From Tsuneonella amylolytica (GTDB lineage Bacteria; Pseudomonadota; Alphaproteobacteria; Sphingomonadales; Sphingomonadaceae): a DNA stretch of 64,000 bases. A model generated the notes under the pieces. It was not told where the DNA came from. It was given only the letters and a program-made list of their open reading frames with translations, and made no database searches. Shown here piece by piece: positions 39,001 through 47,299 of this stretch. Numbering within the stretch: position 1 is the first letter of the stretch; every line of letters begins with the position of its first letter. The DNA lies in NCBI RefSeq assembly GCF_003626915.1, contig NZ_CP032570.1:2293001-2357000 (forward strand), written 5' to 3'. The position numbers and the translations under genes were made by a program.

Positions 39001-40344
39001 CTATCGGGCCTGCGGCGCTGGTCTGGCCGATGCCTGAGGCGCCGGCCCCGCCCGGTTGGCCCGCGTGATGCTCCAGACCGTATTCGATACGTCGTCGGCC
39101 ACCAGCAGTCGCCCGCGCGGAGCGTCGTAAAGCACGCCCACGGGGCGGCCCCGCGCTTCGCCGTCCTTCAGGAAACCGGTGAGGAAGTCGACCGGGTCGC
39201 CTGCCGGCCTTCCGCCGCGAAACGGCACGAAGACGACCTTGTAGCCGGACCGGTCGTTGCGGTTCCAGCTACCGTGCTCGCCCACGAAGGCGCCTTCGGC
39301 GAACTGCCCGCCCATTCCGCCGTCATTCGTGAAAGTGAGACCCAGCGCGGCAACATGGCTGCCAAGGGCATAATCGGGCTTGATGGCCTTTGCGACCATA
39401 TCGGGTTTCTGGGGATGGACGCGCGGATCGACGGTCTGGCCGTAATAGCTGTAAGGCCAGCCGTAGAACCCGCCTTCGCGCACCGATGTGAGGTAATCGG
39501 GCACGAGTTCGGGGCCCAGTTCGTCACGCTCGTTGACGACCGACCACAGGCGATTGCCCCATGGATCGAACGCAAGCGCGGTGGGGTTGCGGATGCCGCT
39601 GGCGAAGATGCGGCTCGAGCCGTCGGCAGGATCGACCTCCCAAATGACCGCGCGATCCTCTTCGGCATCCATCCCGCGTTCGCCCACGTTGCTGTTGGAG
39701 CCGATGCCGACGTAGAGCCGGCTGCCATCGGGGCTGGCGGTCAGCGCCTTGGTCCAGTGATGGTTGATCTTCGCAGGGAGGTCGGTGACCTTTTCGCCCG
39801 GCGCGGTGATGGCGGTCGCACCCTCGGTATAGGGGAAACGCATTAGGTCCCCCTGGTTGGCGACGTAGATTGCCCCGTTCACGAACGCAAGGCCGTAAGG
39901 CGCGTCGAGGCCCGATATGAAAGTGGTCTGGAGATCGGTCCGCCCGTCGCCATCGCTGTCGCGCAGCAGGGTGATGCGATCGCCGCCCTTGACCGGGCTC
40001 TTGCCTCGGCTCTTCAGGAAACCCGCGACGATGTCCTTCGGCCGCACCTTGGGCGCGTGGCCGCCAGACCCTTCGGCCACCAGCACGTCGCCGTTGGGCA
40101 GCACGAGCATCTGACGGGGGATCTTGAGGTCCTGTGCGATGGGGGTGACTGTGTACCCTTGCGGAACCGTCGGCAGTTCGCCGTTCCAGCCGGTCGGCGG
40201 CGCGATGGCGATTGCGGGTATCAGGCTGTCGGCCTGCTTCGGCAGGGTGGGCGACTGGCCGGTCTGGTCGAGCCCCCGGGACGACGGCGAACAGGCTGCG
40301 ACGAGAGCGATCAGCGGCAGGGCCGCGAGCGACAGGCGGTTCAT
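39001..40344 (-). CDS. Sorbosone-dehydrogenase-like lipoprotein (PQQ sugar dehydrogenase family)
   Basis: 447 aa from the ATG at 40344. Signal peptide with lipobox LVAAC, so it is a lipid-anchored periplasmic protein. A six-bladed propeller of the soluble glucose/sorbosone dehydrogenase family is indicated by MLVLPNGDVLVAEGSGG, GLDAPYGLAFVNGAIYVANQ and REGGFYGWPYSYYG. Members use PQQ or are catalytically inactive; PQQ ligands cannot be confirmed by eye. It overlaps the DUF2231 gene by 4 nt (ATGA) and closes the run that begins with the terminal oxidase genes, which suggests a link to periplasmic electron transfer. Confidence 0.8.
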   Translation of the reverse strand: MNRLSLAALPLIALVAACSPSSRGLDQTGQSPTLPKQADSLIPAIAIAPPTGWNGELPTVPQGYTVTPIAQDLKIPRQMLVLPNGDVLVAEGSGGHAPKVRPKDIVAGFLKSRGKSPVKGGDRITLLRDSDGDGRTDLQTTFISGLDAPYGLAFVNGAIYVANQGDLMRFPYTEGATAITAPGEKVTDLPAKINHHWTKALTASPDGSRLYVGIGSNSNVGERGMDAEEDRAVIWEVDPADGSSRIFASGIRNPTALAFDPWGNRLWSVVNERDELGPELVPDYLTSVREGGFYGWPYSYYGQTVDPRVHPQKPDMVAKAIKPDYALGSHVAALGLTFTNDGGMGGQFAEGAFVGEHGSWNRNDRSGYKVVFVPFRGGRPAGDPVDFLTGFLKDGEARGRPVGVLYDAPRGRLLVADDVSNTVWSITRANRAGPAPQASARPAPQAR

Positions 40345-40778
40345 GTGCGGGTCTCCCGAACTGTGGTTCCGGAATGGAGCAGGAAGGCTGCCACGATGGC
40401 GAGGATGGCGCAGACGGCCGACATGACAACACCCGCCGTACCGACCGACGCCCACCCGTCCTTGGAATGCTGGAAGGCGTTGATCACCCCGACCACGAAC
40501 ATCACCGCCACGACGACGAGGTACAATGAGCCCCTCCCCCGGGCCCGGCGTGCTTTACCGAAGAAAAACGACACGAGCGCCCATGCCAGCAGCAATCCCG
40601 CGAACAGATCGGCACCGGCTATCAGCCACTGCGAAAAGTTGGTCCACTGGATCACCGACGTACGCAGATACGTGATGTCGGAAATCAGTGCCGCGGGATA
40701 CAGGGCGACGGGGAAAGCGAGAAGGATCGCGTGGATCGGGCTGGCAAGCGAGGCGGATTTCGCTCCGGGGTCTGGCAT
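40341..40778 (-). CDS. DUF2231-like membrane protein
   Basis: 145 aa with four hydrophobic helices: PIHAILLAFPVALYPAALIS, FSQWLIAGADLFAGLLLAWAL, LYLVVVAVMFVVGVI and VVMSAVCAILAIVAAFLLH. The first helix has the HAIL start found in DUF2231 proteins (in which conserved His residues may bind heme). It is coupled to the dehydrogenase-like lipoprotein by a 4-nt overlap, so it could be its membrane electron acceptor. That partnership is inferred from position. Confidence 0.75.
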   Translation of the reverse strand: MPDPGAKSASLASPIHAILLAFPVALYPAALISDITYLRTSVIQWTNFSQWLIAGADLFAGLLLAWALVSFFFGKARRARGRGSLYLVVVAVMFVVGVINAFQHSKDGWASVGTAGVVMSAVCAILAIVAAFLLHSGTTVRETRT

Positions 40779-41132: not shown

Positions 41133-43673
41133 CTACGCCCCCGGCACGAACCGCACGATCAGCGCGGTCGCGAAACCCTGCACCGCGACGTAGCCGATGA
41201 ACCGCGTCACGATGTCGAGCGTGACATTGGCGGGGCCCGACACGAGCCCCCGTCCGCTGCGATAGCCGAGATAGAGGGCCATGATGACCGCGATCGCGGC
41301 GCATACGCCTTGGAAGGCGACGAGTGCGAAGACCGTTGCGCCCTGGCCGGTTGCAGAAGGTTCGAGCCCGACGTCGGACCACCCGCTCCAGTCGAGCCAT
41401 GCGCCCGCAGCCAGCGCAGCGCTGGCAACCGCACCGAGCAGCCAAGGGCCCTGTCCTGGGAACACGCCCTTCGCCGAACGCGCGAGCATCATGCGCGAAC
41501 CCCGCGCCAGCAGGAATGCGGCGACAGCGGAACCGGTGACCAGAGCGGTCTGCCACAGCGGCGGCGGGGCGATCCATACCTCGGGGTGGATGCCGTAGAG
41601 GTAGAGGTAGCCGAACACTGCCATGAAGGCGATCATGCCCATCACCACCATCAGCGTGTTGAGCGCCCACCAGCCGTGGCTGGAAGGGCCGGTGATGGCG
41701 ACAGGCAGCACGATCCCCGCGCCCACGTCCGCCTCCTCGTGCTTCAGCGGGCGATCGGTCTCCCACAGCCAGCGCAGCACGCAGGCAATGGCGACAACGC
41801 CGCAGAACAGCGAGAAGCCGTAGGCCTGCACCGTTAGCGACAGGAAGTGCAGGGCGGTGCCAACCGCGGCCGCCAGCGGCCAGGGCGAGGGGCCGGGCAT
41901 GATCTGGAGATACTGCGGCTCGGCATTGATCGGGCTGGTGATCAGCGTCTCGCGCAGGCCCGTGGCGCTGCCGGGAAGGAAGTAGCGCCCTTCCTCCACT
42001 CGCCGGGCAAGACCGGGATCGTGCCACAGCGGCTCGCGGCTGTTCACGAGCGGGATCGAGCGCGTGGAATAGAGTCCCGTCGGCAGCCATTCCAGCGTGC
42101 CGCCGCCATAGACGTTGCCCGCCTCCTCCTCCGCCGAGAAGCGGAAGTTGCGAAAGAGATCGACGATGAACAGCAGCACGCCCGCCGCGATGACGAAGGC
42201 GCCGACGGTGGAGACGAGGTTAAGCAGGTCCAGCCCGCGATCGGGCAGATAGGTATAGACCCTGCGCGGCATTCCCATGAGGCCCGTCAGGTGCATCGGC
42301 AGGAAGGTCACGTGGATGCCGGCAAAGATCAGCCAGAAGACCCAGCGGCCCACACGCTCGCTCAAGGGCCGCGCGCTCGTCATGCCGAACCAGTAGTAGA
42401 ACGCGCCGAACATCGGCAGCACCATGCCTCCGATAAGCACGTAGTGGAGATGCGCGACGATGAAGTAGGTGTCGTGCGCCTGCCAGTCGAACGGCACCAT
42501 GCCCACCATGACGCCCGTTAGCCCGCCCATCACGAAGACCAGCAGCCCGCCGACTACGAACAGCGCAGGCACGGACCAGCGGATCTTTCCGCTCGCCAGC
42601 GTGGCGATCCAGCAGAAGACCTGGATGCCGGCGGGAAGGCTCACCGCCATGCTCGCCGCGCTGAAATAGCCGGTGGAGACGCGCGGCATTCCGGTAGCGA
42701 ACATATGGTGCGCCCACACACCGAAACTGATGAAGCCGGTGGCGATGATCGCCAGCACGTTGAGCCGGTATCCGACCAGCTCGGTGCGCGCAATGGTGGC
42801 CACCATCATGCTCATCAAGCCCGCCGCGGGGAGGAAGATGATGTAGACCTCCGGATGGCCGAAGAACCAGAACAGGTGCTGCCACAACAGCGGATCGCCG
42901 CCGCGCGTGGGATCGAAGAACGGCCAGTTGAAGGCCCGCTCCAGCTCCAGCAGCAGGGTGCCGAGGATGACGCTCGGGAAAGCGACCACGATCATCACCG
43001 CGAAGACCAGCATCGCCCATGCGAACACCGGCATCCGCGACAGCGTCATCCCCGGCGCGCGGGTGCGCAGGACACCAACGATGATCTCGATCGCGCCGGC
43101 GATGGCGGAAATCTCGATGAAGCCGATGCCCAGCAGCCAGAAGTCGGTGTTGATTCCGGGGCTGTAGGCGATGGAGGTGAGCGGCGGGTACATGAACCAG
43201 CCGCCGTCGGGCGCAAGGCCCACGAACAGCGAACAGAAGAACAGGAGGCCGCCTACGAAATAGGCCCAGAAGGCATAGGCCGACAGACGCGGGAAGGGCA
43301 GGTCGCGGGCGGCCAGCATCTGCGGCAGCAGCAGCACCCCGATCGCCTCTACCATGGGCACCGCGAACAGGAACATCATCACCGTGCCGTGCATGGTGAA
43401 GAACTGGTTGTAGGTATCGACCGGCAGGAATTCCTGCATCGGCGCGGCCAGCTGCACCCGCATGCCCAGCGACAATACGCCCGCCAGCACGAAGAACAGG
43501 AAGGCCGTGCCGACGTAGTAGATGCCGATGTAGTTGTTGTTGACCGCGGTCAGCAGCTGCCAGCCGGTGGGCTTGCACCAGATGCGTTCCAGCTCCTCCA
43601 GCTCGCCTTCGGGGCGAGGGCCTTCGGTCGGGAAGCGGTCGTAGAGAGAGTGATCGAAACCCGTCTCGCTCAT
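41133..43673 (-). CDS. ctaD: Cytochrome c oxidase subunit I fused to subunit III
   Basis: 846 aa. Residues 1-about 560 are the heme-copper oxidase subunit I: low-spin heme ligands His95 and His410, heme a3 His408, CuB ligands His273, His322 and His323, and Tyr277 for the His-Tyr crosslink (GHPEVY, with Glu275). Residues about 600-846 form subunit III (KHEEADVGAGIVLP onward). The family is therefore A-type, I+III fused as in some caa3 oxidases. Two proton-channel positions are unusual: the K-channel TGxK is AGIQ here (Ala348, Gln351), and the D-channel Asn (N139 in R. sphaeroides) is Ser131, while Asp124 and Glu275 remain. It overlaps the subunit II gene by 4 nt. Confidence 0.95.
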   Translation of the reverse strand: MSETGFDHSLYDRFPTEGPRPEGELEELERIWCKPTGWQLLTAVNNNYIGIYYVGTAFLFFVLAGVLSLGMRVQLAAPMQEFLPVDTYNQFFTMHGTVMMFLFAVPMVEAIGVLLLPQMLAARDLPFPRLSAYAFWAYFVGGLLFFCSLFVGLAPDGGWFMYPPLTSIAYSPGINTDFWLLGIGFIEISAIAGAIEIIVGVLRTRAPGMTLSRMPVFAWAMLVFAVMIVVAFPSVILGTLLLELERAFNWPFFDPTRGGDPLLWQHLFWFFGHPEVYIIFLPAAGLMSMMVATIARTELVGYRLNVLAIIATGFISFGVWAHHMFATGMPRVSTGYFSAASMAVSLPAGIQVFCWIATLASGKIRWSVPALFVVGGLLVFVMGGLTGVMVGMVPFDWQAHDTYFIVAHLHYVLIGGMVLPMFGAFYYWFGMTSARPLSERVGRWVFWLIFAGIHVTFLPMHLTGLMGMPRRVYTYLPDRGLDLLNLVSTVGAFVIAAGVLLFIVDLFRNFRFSAEEEAGNVYGGGTLEWLPTGLYSTRSIPLVNSREPLWHDPGLARRVEEGRYFLPGSATGLRETLITSPINAEPQYLQIMPGPSPWPLAAAVGTALHFLSLTVQAYGFSLFCGVVAIACVLRWLWETDRPLKHEEADVGAGIVLPVAITGPSSHGWWALNTLMVVMGMIAFMAVFGYLYLYGIHPEVWIAPPPLWQTALVTGSAVAAFLLARGSRMMLARSAKGVFPGQGPWLLGAVASAALAAGAWLDWSGWSDVGLEPSATGQGATVFALVAFQGVCAAIAVIMALYLGYRSGRGLVSGPANVTLDIVTRFIGYVAVQGFATALIVRFVPGA

Positions 43674-44698
43674 CGCGGCGTGTCCAGCCAGGCGGCGATG
43701 GCCTCAACCTCTTGCGCGGACAGCATGTCGTAGCTCGGCATCCGGTTGCCCGGCTTCACCGCCTGGCTGTCGGTAATCCAGCCCTGCAACGTGCCCCGAT
43801 TGTTAGGCAGAACCCCCGCTCCCAGGGTAAGCCTGCGCGAGACGTGGGTGAGGTCGGGGCCGGACAAGCCATTCGCCGCAGTGCCCTCTACCCGGTGGCA
43901 GGCGGCGCAGCCGTTGGCGAGAAACAGCGCCCCGCCATTGGCGGCGGCCGGAACTGGCCCGGCGGCTGTCCTGCGCTCCAACGCGGGCAGGCTGCCCGGG
44001 ACCTTCTGCTGTTCGGTGAGCAGCGGCGCGCCGATGCGCTCCCCGCCAAGAAAACGGCGATAGTCCGCATCGTCGTGCGCGGCGACGACGAATCCCATCA
44101 GCGCATGCGGCCCTCCGCAGAATTCCGCGCACACGCCGCCGTATCGCCCGGCCTTGTCCGCCTGCACCTTGAGGAGGTTGGTGCGGCCCGGGATCATGTC
44201 CTCCTTGCCCGACAGGTTCGGCACCCAGAAGCTGTGGATGACGTCCGCACTCTTCAATTCGAGGACGACCGGGCGGCCCACCGGCAGGTGCAGTTCGTTG
44301 GCATCGCGCAGCACGACGCGGCCTGCGGCATCGAGGTATTCGACGTCCCACCACCACATATGCCCCGTCACCCGGATACGCTGTTCGTCGCCGCGAATGG
44401 GATCGGTCAGCGAGGCGGTGAGGGTCAGCCCCCAGACCAGCAGCCCGGTCAGCACCACGCCGGGAAAGGCGACGCCCATGATCCAGATCAGCTTCTCCCC
44501 GCCCAGTTTCGCCTTCCACTTCGCGGGTCCCGCCAGCGCCACGTACAGCGCCGCCGCCACGATCGCGGTCACGATGGCCCCCATCGCAAACAGCGCCCAG
44601 GCAAGCACCGTCACGCTTTCGGCGTATGGACCTGCTGGATCGAGAACGGGCGGCGGCCAGCCCCACCATGCGTCGAAAGCGGTCGAAGCGTCAGTCAT
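43670..44698 (-). CDS. ctaC: Cytochrome c oxidase subunit II with C-terminal cytochrome c
   Basis: 342 aa from the ATG at 44698, overlapping the upstream cytochrome gene by 8 nt (ATGACTGA). Two membrane helices (about 30-56 and 70-94) precede the CuA cupredoxin domain with ligands His155, Cys190, Glu192, Cys194, His198 and Met201 (VCAEFCGGPHALMGF). The C-terminal domain (about 250-342) is a cytochrome c with CAACH at 264-268 and axial Met310 (GNRMPSY). This subunit II-c fusion defines the enzyme as caa3-type, accepting electrons directly through its own heme c. An alternative upstream start (44728) adds 10 residues. Confidence 0.95.
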   Translation of the reverse strand: MTDASTAFDAWWGWPPPVLDPAGPYAESVTVLAWALFAMGAIVTAIVAAALYVALAGPAKWKAKLGGEKLIWIMGVAFPGVVLTGLLVWGLTLTASLTDPIRGDEQRIRVTGHMWWWDVEYLDAAGRVVLRDANELHLPVGRPVVLELKSADVIHSFWVPNLSGKEDMIPGRTNLLKVQADKAGRYGGVCAEFCGGPHALMGFVVAAHDDADYRRFLGGERIGAPLLTEQQKVPGSLPALERRTAAGPVPAAANGGALFLANGCAACHRVEGTAANGLSGPDLTHVSRRLTLGAGVLPNNRGTLQGWITDSQAVKPGNRMPSYDMLSAQEVEAIAAWLDTPR

Positions 44699-45059
44699 CG
44701 GAGATACCATAGAGATAGGCGGCGACATCGCGCGCCTCGGATCGGGAAATCGGCATGGCGGGCATCGTGCTGCCGGGCTTGGCGACGGGCGCGTTGCGGA
44801 CGAACGCGGCGAGGTTGGCCGGCGTGTTGGGGAGCGCGCCGGCGATGGGCCCCCGTCCGTCGAAGGCCGTCAGGTCCGGGCCCGCGCGCCCCTTGGGCCA
44901 GTCTATGTCGGGAAATGCGTGACACGCCGCGCACCCCGCCGCGGCCACGACCGTACGGCCACGCTCGATGGCCGCGGGTTCGAAGTCGTGCCGGCCTTCG
45001 GGCGGCGGCTTGCATCCTGCCGCGGCGGCTGCCAGCAATACGGCGATGGCGAGCTTCAC
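44691..45059 (-). CDS. Single-heme cytochrome c lipoprotein
   Basis: 122 aa from a GTG start at 45059. A signal peptide ends in the lipobox AAAAGC (Cys16), so it is anchored in the membrane. One heme site CAACH (residues 43-47) and an axial Met in STMPAMPI near 100-107. It overlaps ctaC by 8 nt and is first in the oxidase gene run. It is probably an electron donor or accessory cytochrome to the caa3 oxidase. Confidence 0.88.
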   Translation of the reverse strand: MKLAIAVLLAAAAAGCKPPPEGRHDFEPAAIERGRTVVAAAGCAACHAFPDIDWPKGRAGPDLTAFDGRGPIAGALPNTPANLAAFVRNAPVAKPGSTMPAMPISRSEARDVAAYLYGISDD

Positions 45060-45104: not shown

Positions 45105-45809
45105 ATGAAGCGATTGTCCTGTCTTGCCGCGCCGTTTTTCGTCCTGACGACAAGCGCGTGCTCCTCGCCCGCGATCACCGCCGATCTGTTCGCTGCGACC
45201 GGCGAGACGATCGCTTTCAGCGGCGGTGCGGCCGGGGCGGCGGGAGCGTGCTCCACGTGCCACGGGACGCGCGGAGAGGGCGACGGCAACCTCGCGCCGC
45301 GAATCGCGGGGCTCGACCAGGGTTACGCGCTGCGCCAACTCGAACACTTTGCCTCCGGCGCCCGCCGGCACCCCCAGATGCAGTGGATCGCCGGTCGGCT
45401 CGATGGAGACGCCCGCGAGAAAGTCACCGCTTACTACGCGCAAATGGACTGGGCTACGCTGGACGCGCTGGAAGGGGCCGCGCCATGTGCGGGGGCGATC
45501 CTCTATCACGAGGACCTTCCGCCCAAGGGCGTCGCATCGTGCGCCAGCTGCCACGGCGCCGACGGGCTCGGCAACGCGGGCAATCCGCCGCTTGCGGGGC
45601 AGAGTGCGGCGTATCTGGAACGCCAGCTCGATGCGTGGGCGACGGGCGAACGGTACGGCGACGGCGGGGCGGCAATGACAGCCATCAGCCGGTCGCTCCA
45701 TCCGGCCGATCGGCGAGCGGTGGCGGCGTATGCCGCGAACCCAGCGGGTGCTGGCGATGGTCGGTCAGTTCCGGAAACATGCCTTCGAGCACGTCGTCCC
45801 GATCGATGA
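45105..45809 (+). CDS. Di-heme cytochrome c lipoprotein (c4-like)
   Basis: 234 aa from the ATG at 45105; AGGAGG lies 15 nt before it. Lipobox TTSAC (Cys19). Two heme motifs: CSTCH at 49-53 and CASCH at 146-150, each followed by GxxGxG-type turns, the layout of cytochrome c4. It faces the single-heme cytochrome across a 45-bp spacer. Its last 125 bp overlap the 3' end of the convergent b561 gene; the second domain's end motif DRRAVAAYAAN lies inside this overlap. It may carry electrons between b561 or other donors and the oxidase. Confidence 0.88.
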   Translation: MKRLSCLAAPFFVLTTSACSSPAITADLFAATGETIAFSGGAAGAAGACSTCHGTRGEGDGNLAPRIAGLDQGYALRQLEHFASGARRHPQMQWIAGRLDGDAREKVTAYYAQMDWATLDALEGAAPCAGAILYHEDLPPKGVASCASCHGADGLGNAGNPPLAGQSAAYLERQLDAWATGERYGDGGAAMTAISRSLHPADRRAVAAYAANPAGAGDGRSVPETCLRARRPDR

Positions 45810-46356
45810 AATGATGCTTGAGCGCCGCGAGGGCATGCGCGGGGACGAGCAGGGTGAGCAGGATCACCGCAGCGACGTGGACGTCCATCGACCAGTCGAG
45901 CACGCGGAACTGCCACGCCCGCGACAGGTCGTAGAACGGCATCGGCGGGACGGGGATGAGACCCGCCAGATATAGCGGACGCGCCGGCTGGATCGCCGAC
46001 CACATCGCCCAGCCGGACAGTGGCAGGATCGTGAAGAGCGCGTAGAACACGCCGTGTGTCAGATGCGCGATGTTCGAGGGCAGGCCGGGCTTGTCCGCGT
46101 CGTTGATCGGACCGGGAACGATCAGGCGCCAGAGCAGCCGCAACACCCCCAGCACGAGCAGCGTGAGCCCGATCTGCGAATGGAGCGCATAGGCAGCCAG
46201 CTTCTCGCCCCCGACGAGATAGCGCTGGATCCACCATCCCGTGCCGAGCTGAAAGATCACCACCGCGGCCATGATCCAGTGGAACGCGACGCCCACAGGC
46301 GTGTAGCGGCCGCGGCTGCGATAGCGCTGCGCCCATGCCCCCAGCCTGCTCGTCAT
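45685..46356 (-). CDS. Cytochrome b561 family protein of the oxidase locus
   Basis: 223 aa from the ATG at 46356. Four helices with heme His residues: VAFHWIMAAVVIFQL, ALHSQIGLTLLVLG, HLTHGVFYALFTI, and VHVAAVILLTLLVPAHALAALKHH. Longer than the b561 at 12281-12844 and with only low similarity to it. A quinol-linked di-heme carrier, possibly feeding the cytochromes here. It overlaps ctaG by 4 nt (ATGA) and the di-heme cytochrome by 125 bp in opposite orientation. Confidence 0.9.
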   Translation of the reverse strand: MTSRLGAWAQRYRSRGRYTPVGVAFHWIMAAVVIFQLGTGWWIQRYLVGGEKLAAYALHSQIGLTLLVLGVLRLLWRLIVPGPINDADKPGLPSNIAHLTHGVFYALFTILPLSGWAMWSAIQPARPLYLAGLIPVPPMPFYDLSRAWQFRVLDWSMDVHVAAVILLTLLVPAHALAALKHHFIDRDDVLEGMFPELTDHRQHPLGSRHTPPPLADRPDGATG

Positions 46357-47099
46357 GCGGCGCGGGGCTGCGGATCCGGGCCGAGGGCCCGCCATAGCCT
46401 GGCCGAGGCGAACAGGAGGTAGAAACCGCCGCCGACGACCCACATCACCAGTCCCGCGATTTGCTGATCCTCGAGCGGCGTCAGGCCCCAGGCGGCAATC
46501 GTGCCAAAGTGCGGTGCGTAGAGCGCCCGTCCTGCGAAGACGAGCAACGCACCCAAGACGCCCATCTGGACCATCTGCGCCAAAAGGCTCGCTCCCGCCT
46601 TCAGCGCGCCCGACCGGCGCACGGCCGCCCACCATGCCGCCGCGCTGGCGGTGATCGTCACCTGCATCGTCCAGAACACCGCATCGTTCGACATGGCCAG
46701 TTCGTAGAGAGTCGGCAGGTGCCATGCCCAGAACACCGCCGCCTGGACCAGCGTGGCCGCCCCGAGCGGCAGGGGCGGATAGACCTTCTTGCCGACGGCA
46801 GCGACCAGCAGCGGCGCAAGCACGAACGCCAAAGCCAGGTGATGGACCGACCGCGCTACGAACAGCGCCGATCCGAGCGCGCACAGGGGAGTCACGAACA
46901 GGATGACCATGGCTCCGACGAAACCGACTTGGCTGCGCATCGTGCGGGGCGAGTATCTCGCTCCCGCGACGATCAAGGCGGCCAGCATCGCCAGCAGAAC
47001 CGGGTCCCAGTTCCAGTGCATCAGCCAATGCGCCGGGCTTGGCGCCTCCCCGCAATACGGGCTCCAGCTCGTCGCGTGCGCGGTGGGCGTCGTCTCCAT
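46353..47099 (-). CDS. ctaG: caa3-type oxidase assembly protein CtaG
   Basis: 248 aa from the ATG at 47099; a longer start at 47147 is possible. Polytopic membrane protein of the caa3_CtaG family, with [37 protein letters not shown] and [21 protein letters not shown] helices; the HH and HLP histidines are the conserved metal-related residues. It supports CuB insertion in the oxidase. It is distinct from the Cox11-type CtaG. Coupled to the b561 gene by a 4-nt overlap. Confidence 0.9.
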
Positions 47100-47299
47100 C
47101 CCCGACTGATTACCCGATGGCGCGCCTCGTTCAATTCCTTCGTCCACGGATTCTGGATCTAACGGGAATATATCCGAGCTACCGTGGAAGGGATTACAAT
47201 CCTCTCAAGCGCCCTACATCATGGTCCAGATCGGACATCGGCCAACGAAAAGGAAAACGGGTCGAGTTTTCGCAGCTGTGGCTGAAAACCTTGATCCAC

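Follow-up and report, generated by a model that had tools for sequence, protein, structure and literature searches.

Absence of the classical K-channel residues from a fused caa3-type oxidase of Tsuneonella amylolytica and from a deep branch of A-family oxygen reductases

By the consensus set out in PMC10341450, proton delivery through the K-channel of oxygen reductases needs Lys362 of subunit I (Rhodobacter sphaeroides numbering, used below for alignment positions), and PMC9687966 describes mutation experiments that make Glu101 of subunit II essential to the same channel. The D-channel is marked, in the account of PMC10341450, by residues that include Asn121, Asp132, Asn139, Ser142, Ser197, Ser200, Ser201, Asn207 and Glu286, with Asn121 and Asn139 named as its gate. 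Here we analyse a gene for fused oxidase subunits I and III (CoxAC, 846 residues) in a 64,000-nucleotide stretch of the T. amylolytica genome (assembly GCF_003626915.1, contig NZ_CP032570.1, positions 2293001-2357000; hereafter the window, in whose own numbering all coordinates are given). Throughout the sampled part of the branch to which this oxidase belongs, two classical K-channel residues, Lys362 of subunit I and Glu101 of subunit II, are missing. We propose that CoxAC serves as catalytic subunit in a caa3-type oxygen reductase from a deep A-family branch that would have given up the classical K-channel.

The A1-type aa3 oxidases of R. sphaeroides and Paracoccus resemble CoxAC in their fold (2gsm, Z 50.4, root-mean-square deviation (rmsd) 1.4), metal ligands, active-site Tyr and acids at the places of Asp132 and Glu286. 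Unlike them, the window enzyme replaces Lys362, Thr359, Glu101 of subunit II, Asn121, Asn139 and Asn207, adds Glu residues at 117, 198 and 207, and is fused to subunit III. The caa3 oxidase of Thermus thermophilus (2yev), in which we presume the K-channel to be present, is likewise an I+III fusion of caa3 type with a similar fold (Z 48.4), but is 39% identical to the window protein over the aligned core. The fusion gene type itself is already known. As in the proteobacterial COX1-3 proteins of COX operon type a, subunit I is fused to subunit III and subunit II to a cytochrome c, the latter fusion being frequent in COX operons (PMC4013037); a term search of the main text of that paper gave no occurrence of the word 'channel'.

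Several other described or annotated systems come close to this locus. The Rhizobium etli p42b oxidase (L209) has Gln362, Glu117, Glu198, Glu207, Val121 and Ala359 in common with CoxAC, as well as genes for cytochrome c, coxB and ctaD in a row, but carries Asn at 132 and 139 and a separate subunit III. By our matching of old and new locus tags it probably corresponds to RHE_PB00063-66, which PMC4274787 names, where it mentions them, as putative and does not study. The oxidase encoded on Sinorhizobium meliloti pSymB (L210; 55% identity over 95% of the fusion) shares Gln362, Glu117, Glu198, Glu207, Asp132 and Ser139 and has a DUF2231-dehydrogenase gene pair nearby, but carries Ser at 359. The CoxMNOP enzymes of KF707 and rhizobia are also described as c-heme-bearing alternative A-type oxidases of Proteobacteria (PMC5492768); CoxN might, at a guess, belong to the group with Trp at 286 presented below. 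PMC8239418 mentions losses of the K-channel in archaeal enzymes of family A. Our literature search, which covered passages and sections of main texts but neither supplements (such as the one in which PMC8239418 classifies K-channels), nor a 2020 study cited in that paper, nor most subscription papers, returned no statement of K-channel loss in proteobacterial A-type oxidases.

A fused oxidase of the A family

The host genome (2.79 Mb, a single contig) harbours three COX1 genes. The CoxAC gene (41133-43673, minus strand) is a stop-free open frame and overlaps by four bases the end of the gene for a caa3-type CoxB (43670..44728, minus), a subunit II with a COX2 domain and a C-terminal cytochrome c. 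An earlier interpretation made from the letters of this DNA, hereafter the sequence-only reading, had taken the protein for a fused caa3-type subunit I, which agrees with the intact I+III fusion and with this CoxB partner. The subunit I part comprises residues 1-545 (42039..43673, minus). It harbours H95, H273, H322, H323, H408 and H410, which we take to be the ligands of heme a, heme a3 and CuB, as well as the crosslinking Tyr277, whose place is held by Tyr in 100% of all sequence groups compared. The active-site residues are invariant, and the oxygen-reducing site is intact. The C-terminal part (approximately residues 655-846; 41136..41711, minus) is a highly diverged subunit III, identified by comparing its profile with that of the separate subunit III in relatives that lack the fusion (99.7%, E-value 5e-26) and matched by BLASTP to subunit III of R. 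etli (E-value 5e-4). It gave no match to Pfam COX3 at E-values up to 1 and went unrecognized in a sequence search of the PDB.

An AlphaFold model of residues 1-545, computed with 58 sequences, reached a predicted local distance difference test (pLDDT) score of 88.5 and a predicted template modelling (pTM) score of 0.89. Its best structure alignments in the PDB are with A-family oxidases (Z 50.4-51.1 and rmsd 1.4-1.6 over 491-505 residues for the first seven rows), and the K362M mutant structure of the R. sphaeroides enzyme, 3om3, aligns with Z 49.9. For the subunit III part, structure prediction from the single sequence reached low confidence (pLDDT 47, pTM 0.30), and this model was set aside. 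The best family match of CoxAC is CtaD_CoxA, at 669.2 bits against a cut-off of 670.75, i.e. ~1.5 bits short. No match to the CcoN family (ccoN) was found for CoxAC at an E-value of 0.001; among the 58 aligned members, ccoN matched weakly in 27 (best E-value 2e-13) and CtaD_CoxA in all 58 (best E-value 9e-225). On these grounds we rejected a cbb3-type, C-family identity. Close plasmid-borne orthologues (H1-H7) are annotated as 'cbb3-type cytochrome c oxidase subunit I', an annotation that looks wrong. Nitric oxide reductases are not known to have an active-site Tyr on the His-Pro-Glu-Val-Tyr helix, and this identity was rejected on account of Tyr277.

CoxAC is thus an A-family member by descent: its fold (Z 50-51), its place in the tree, the heme and CuB ligands with the Tyr, and the acids in the places of Asp132 and Glu286 (D124 and E275) are those of A1 enzymes. 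The A1 fingerprints fail at the D-channel asparagines 121, 139 and 207 (V113, S131 and E196), at Thr359 and Lys362 (A348 and Q351) and at Glu101 of subunit II (W82), and we therefore assign it to a lysine-less branch of the A family rather than to the ordinary A1 members.

Loss of the K-channel residues in both subunits

Residue equivalences were taken from HMMER alignments with the solved chains 6koc and 6kob (Bacillus subtilis type aa3-600) and 9wcx, complemented with MAFFT alignments. The R. sphaeroides numbering was obtained by aligning the classical oxidase of the host, L001, to the 6pw1/6ci0 chains, with an offset of 16 to 1m56 (R. sphaeroides). The sequence-only reading had placed Ala348 and Gln351, in the segment SLPAGIQVFCW, where Thr359 and Lys362 form the K-channel (42621..42632, minus), and HMMER and MAFFT gave the same equivalence. 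The classical PTGVK is kept in the other two COX1 genes of the host (L001 and L003). Within the clade of the window protein (31 sequences) the pattern P-A-G-x-Q holds, with Ala359 and Gln362 in 31/31. We saw no sign that AGIQ is common among good pumpers: each of the 40 Lys362-type sequences compared keeps both Thr359 and Lys362, as do the solved chains inspected (aa3-600, 9wcx, 7jro and 6pw1/6ci0), and we presume all of these to pump well. The idea that another Lys or Arg has taken over next to the former channel was rejected, as no clade-specific conserved basic residue lies inside helix VI or VIII near the old lysine. The model places the basic residues that are conserved in the clade but not in Lys362 enzymes (203, 257, 363, 440 and 508) in loops or at the ends of helices.

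Among the 296 genomes of the order, we found 26 orthologues at 68-100% identity, including the window gene, with Gln362 and Ala359 in 26/26 and Ser139 in 25/26. The dN/dS ratio (non-synonymous to synonymous substitution rates) of the CoxAC gene is 0.087 relative to the closest orthologue and 0.11-0.27 relative to four more distant ones. Because the ligands are invariant, dN/dS is low, the residues are the same in 26/26 orthologues and the HMMER and MAFFT alignments agree, a degenerate protein, a pseudogene, a sequencing error or a misalignment is ruled out at the sequence level and appears hardly conceivable.

The analysis was extended to 205 distinct subunit I sequences, one of them a fragment. 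Of the 204 readable ones, 40 have Lys362 and 164 lack it, the latter comprising 153 with Gln362 and 11 with Ala, Ser, Thr or Gly at 362 and Trp in the place of Glu286. Lys362 was present in none of the 49 matches in the order sample (46 of 296 genomes, E-values up to 4e-150), none of the 31 in the class sample (25 of 385 genomes, up to 2e-155) and none of the 42 readable ones among 44 matches in the phylum sample (40 of 398 genomes, up to 1e-120), where a fragment ending before the site (L104) and one further fragment were left out. These presence figures are lower bounds and are silent on Lys362 in weaker matches, because the samples share genomes, no more than two or three candidates were scored in each genome, and the cut-offs are biased towards relatives of the window gene. 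Among the best 80 loci of a longer list from named genomes, lysine-less sequences come from Sphingobium, Sphingopyxis, Sinorhizobium, Devosia, Bosea, Microvirga, Variovorax, Massilia, Achromobacter, Methylobacter, Halomonas and others, together with a few metagenome-assembled genomes (MAGs) named as other phyla; Lys362 sequences come from records named Actinobacteria, Chloroflexi, Gemmatimonadetes, Planctomycetes, Verrucomicrobia and Bacilli. Judging from these sequences, the loss of Lys362 is not a one-off but characterizes a deep, widespread branch of the A family. The sequence-only reading holds for the residue changes, but not in its picture of an isolated odd enzyme.

The entrance of the channel has changed as well. 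In the column of Glu101, 30 of the 31 subunit II partners of Lys362 enzymes have Glu (one has Gln), but none of the 125 partners of lysine-less enzymes do, including 2 gaps. A profile alignment confirms this register, with Trp82 of CoxB in that column (44483-44485, minus). A loose entrance motif, which matched anywhere in 19/101 partners of the main lysine-less group and in 1/19 of the next group, was dropped in favour of the aligned column.

In a subunit I tree of 96 sequences built after removal of the trait columns, all lysine-less sequences form one clade (Shimodaira-Hasegawa-like approximate likelihood ratio test (SH-aLRT) 100) nested among Lys362 A-family sequences, and the Gln362/Glu198 sequences form one clade within it (SH-aLRT 99). 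A subunit II tree of 57 sequences without the entrance columns again unites the lysine-less partners (SH-aLRT 96), with less support for the inner groups (the main group has 72). The two trees were inferred by a quick method, take the long branch of the host's bo3-type sequence L003 as their root and include few other A-family lineages (archaeal, Thermus, Acidithiobacillus). Two sequences from actinobacterial MAGs (L177 and L185) combine Gln362 with Asn121, Asn139, Asn207 and Asp132, and with Gly or Ser at 198; this pattern suggests that the lysine may have been lost before the D-channel changed.

The altered D-channel and possible proton routes

All D-channel positions of CoxAC are coded on the minus strand. 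In line with the sequence-only reading, the alignments put Ser131 (FPRLSAYAFW; 43281..43283) in the place of Asn139 of the asparagine gate, and they confirm that the entry residue Asp124 (place of Asp132; 43302..43304) and Glu275 (place of Glu286; 42849..42851) are kept and that all metal ligands and Tyr277 are present. Beyond the changes listed there, we found Val113 in the place of Asn121, the other half of the gate (43335..43337), Glu196 in that of Asn207 (43086..43088), Glu109 in that of Gly117 (43347..43349), Glu187 in that of Gly198 in transmembrane helix (TM) 4 (43113..43115), and Trp82 of subunit II. Helix periodicity places residue 117 on the lining face of TM2.

Every one of the 40 Lys362 sequences carries Asn at positions 121, 139 and 207 together with Gly at 198, and 31 of them have Ala or Gly at 117. 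Glu198 is present in 151/153 Gln362 sequences, the two exceptions being actinobacterial MAG sequences, and in 0/40 Lys362 and 0/11 Trp286 sequences. The Gln362/Glu198 sequences with an acid at 132 form a group of 121 members. Asn never occurs at position 121 in this group, where Val is found in 55 members, Ile in 53, Met in 9, Leu in 3 and Thr in 1. Position 139 holds Ser in 86, Gly in 15, Thr in 13, Asn in 5 and Ala in 2; position 207 holds Glu in 118, Asp in 2 and Cys in 1; and residue 117 is Glu in 119, with one Gln and one gap. Residue 286 is Glu or Asp in 153/153 Gln362 sequences. In this sub-branch, then, the asparagine gate is dismantled and new conserved carboxylates (E109, E196 and E187 in CoxAC) stand beside the kept D124 and E275.

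Other groups of the branch show different patterns. The remaining 30 Gln362/Glu198 sequences have Asn, Ser, Thr or Ala at 132 and keep Glu286. Twelve sequences have neither Lys362 nor acids at 132 and 207 (L044-L047, L049, L113, L164, L167, L170, L171, L173 and L203), and appear to have no recognizable classical proton entrance left. The Trp286 sister group (L048, L050-L052, L074-L076, L117-L119 and L175; motif GHPWVY) retains Asp132, the three asparagines and Tyr288, both classical channel ends being altered. A further sub-branch (L030-L037, L061-L066 and L085-L089) carries Glu at 353 in helix VIII (FSAASEAV-PTG-Q), possibly another proton group near the old K-channel.

Our preferred interpretation, to which we give a probability of about 45%, is that CoxAC belongs to a working oxygen reductase that lacks the classical K-channel and takes up its protons mainly through a carboxylate-lined D-channel. 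The protons for water formation and any pumped protons would both enter through the rebuilt D-channel and, if it carries all protons, coupling and gating would differ from those of the classical enzyme. We extend this only tentatively to the branch as a whole, common in Proteobacteria: it may work without a K-channel, one rebuilt D-channel delivering every proton, with one sub-branch that lacks acids at 132 and 207 and has no recognizable classical cytoplasmic entrance. Several observations weigh against the D-channel interpretation. The oxidized classical structure is described as having no water path from the end of the D-channel to the active site (PMC10341450), and an enzyme with only this channel would thus need an unseen link. 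A helix wheel puts Glu187 at 106-126 degrees and Glu196 at 54-74 degrees off the lining face, which leaves their placement in the channel unproven; the idea of a ladder of carboxylates in which Glu187 sits directly in the D-channel was only partly kept, as helix periodicity places this residue on the side. The carboxylate path is not universal, because 12 of the 30 sequences that have no acid at 132 have none at 207 either. As the trees need only one origin, the joint presence of the channel changes is not independent evidence of coupling. Lastly, the old K-channel region retains polar groups: residue 359 is Thr or Ser in 89/121 of the group, though Ala in the window's clade, Ser288 and Gln351 remain polar in the window protein, and an acid lies within 11 residues of the old entrance in 38/101 main-group partners, that of the window included, in 34 of them four residues before the place of Glu101.

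These last points lead to the main rival, a serious one that we consider less probable than the D-channel interpretation, namely a lysine-free K-channel in which protons would travel via water, Gln351, Ser288 and Cys/Ser354, with Glu78 of subunit II as a possible new entrance. B- and C-family oxidases use the K position without that lysine. The Ser299 place is Ser or Thr in 31/31 of the clade and in 101/121 of the group, and there is no drift at 362, with Gln in all 153 readable lysine-less sequences outside the Trp286 group. Glu78 lies one turn below the place of Glu101 and is found in 24/31 partners of the window's clade; in the other 7 it is replaced by Lys, Gln, Thr or Ala, however, and an entrance acid is absent in 63/101 main-group partners and in 19, 4 and 1 partners of the other lysine-less groups. 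The Thr359 place being Ala in 31/31 of the clade also argues against such a route. A non-pumping oxygen reductase, whose channel changes would reflect relaxed constraint after loss of pumping, is a still less probable alternative. The asparagine gate is gone, changes at Asn139 uncouple pumping in classical enzymes, and the branch holds groups without Asp132 or without Glu286. Yet drift would be expected at relaxed sites, and Glu198 (151/153), Gln362 (153/153 outside the Trp286 group), Glu117 (119/121) and Glu207 (118/121) are strongly conserved, as is the acid at 286 throughout the Gln362 sequences.

Neighbouring genes and significance

The oxidase genes belong to an operon that runs, on the minus strand, from genes for the copper assembly factor Caa3_CtaG (46353..47147), a cytochrome b561-like protein (45685..46356) and a small lipoprotein-like cytochrome c (44691..45059) to those of CoxB and CoxAC, followed by genes for a DUF2231 membrane protein (40341..40778) and a glucose/sorbosone dehydrogenase-like lipoprotein (39001..40344). 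Aurantiacibacter atlanticus has these genes in the same order, except that four others separate CoxAC from DUF2231. Of six close-clade loci from named genomes, five carry CtaG, b561, cytochrome c and CoxB, the sixth (L135) starting inside the gene; three of these six loci, as well as the two from Sinorhizobium (L136 and L210), have the DUF2231-dehydrogenase pair. On the plus strand, a gene for a divergent, c4-like cytochrome c with two matched stretches (45105..45809) overlaps the end of the b561 gene; its relatives are also coded opposite to the oxidase in five close-clade loci. These recurring neighbours suggest that the electrons originate in periplasmic dehydrogenases and travel by way of cytochromes c. 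Judging by the domains and the order of the genes, periplasmic cytochromes c would deliver them to the cytochrome c domain of CoxB and would probably be fed by the nearby dehydrogenases.

The chemical protons of the reductive half of the cycle must pass through the K-channel according to PMC10341450. The branch described here is a natural experiment on whether oxygen reduction and proton pumping require the lost channel. If these enzymes turn over normally, Lys362 and the asparagine gate have already been replaced by nature, with compensating changes, in many species. Should this be true, the division of labour between the two channels would be directly testable, and the branch would reveal which of the new residues are able to take over the task. 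The findings also caution against taking the pumping yield for granted whenever a gene is annotated as a caa3 oxidase.

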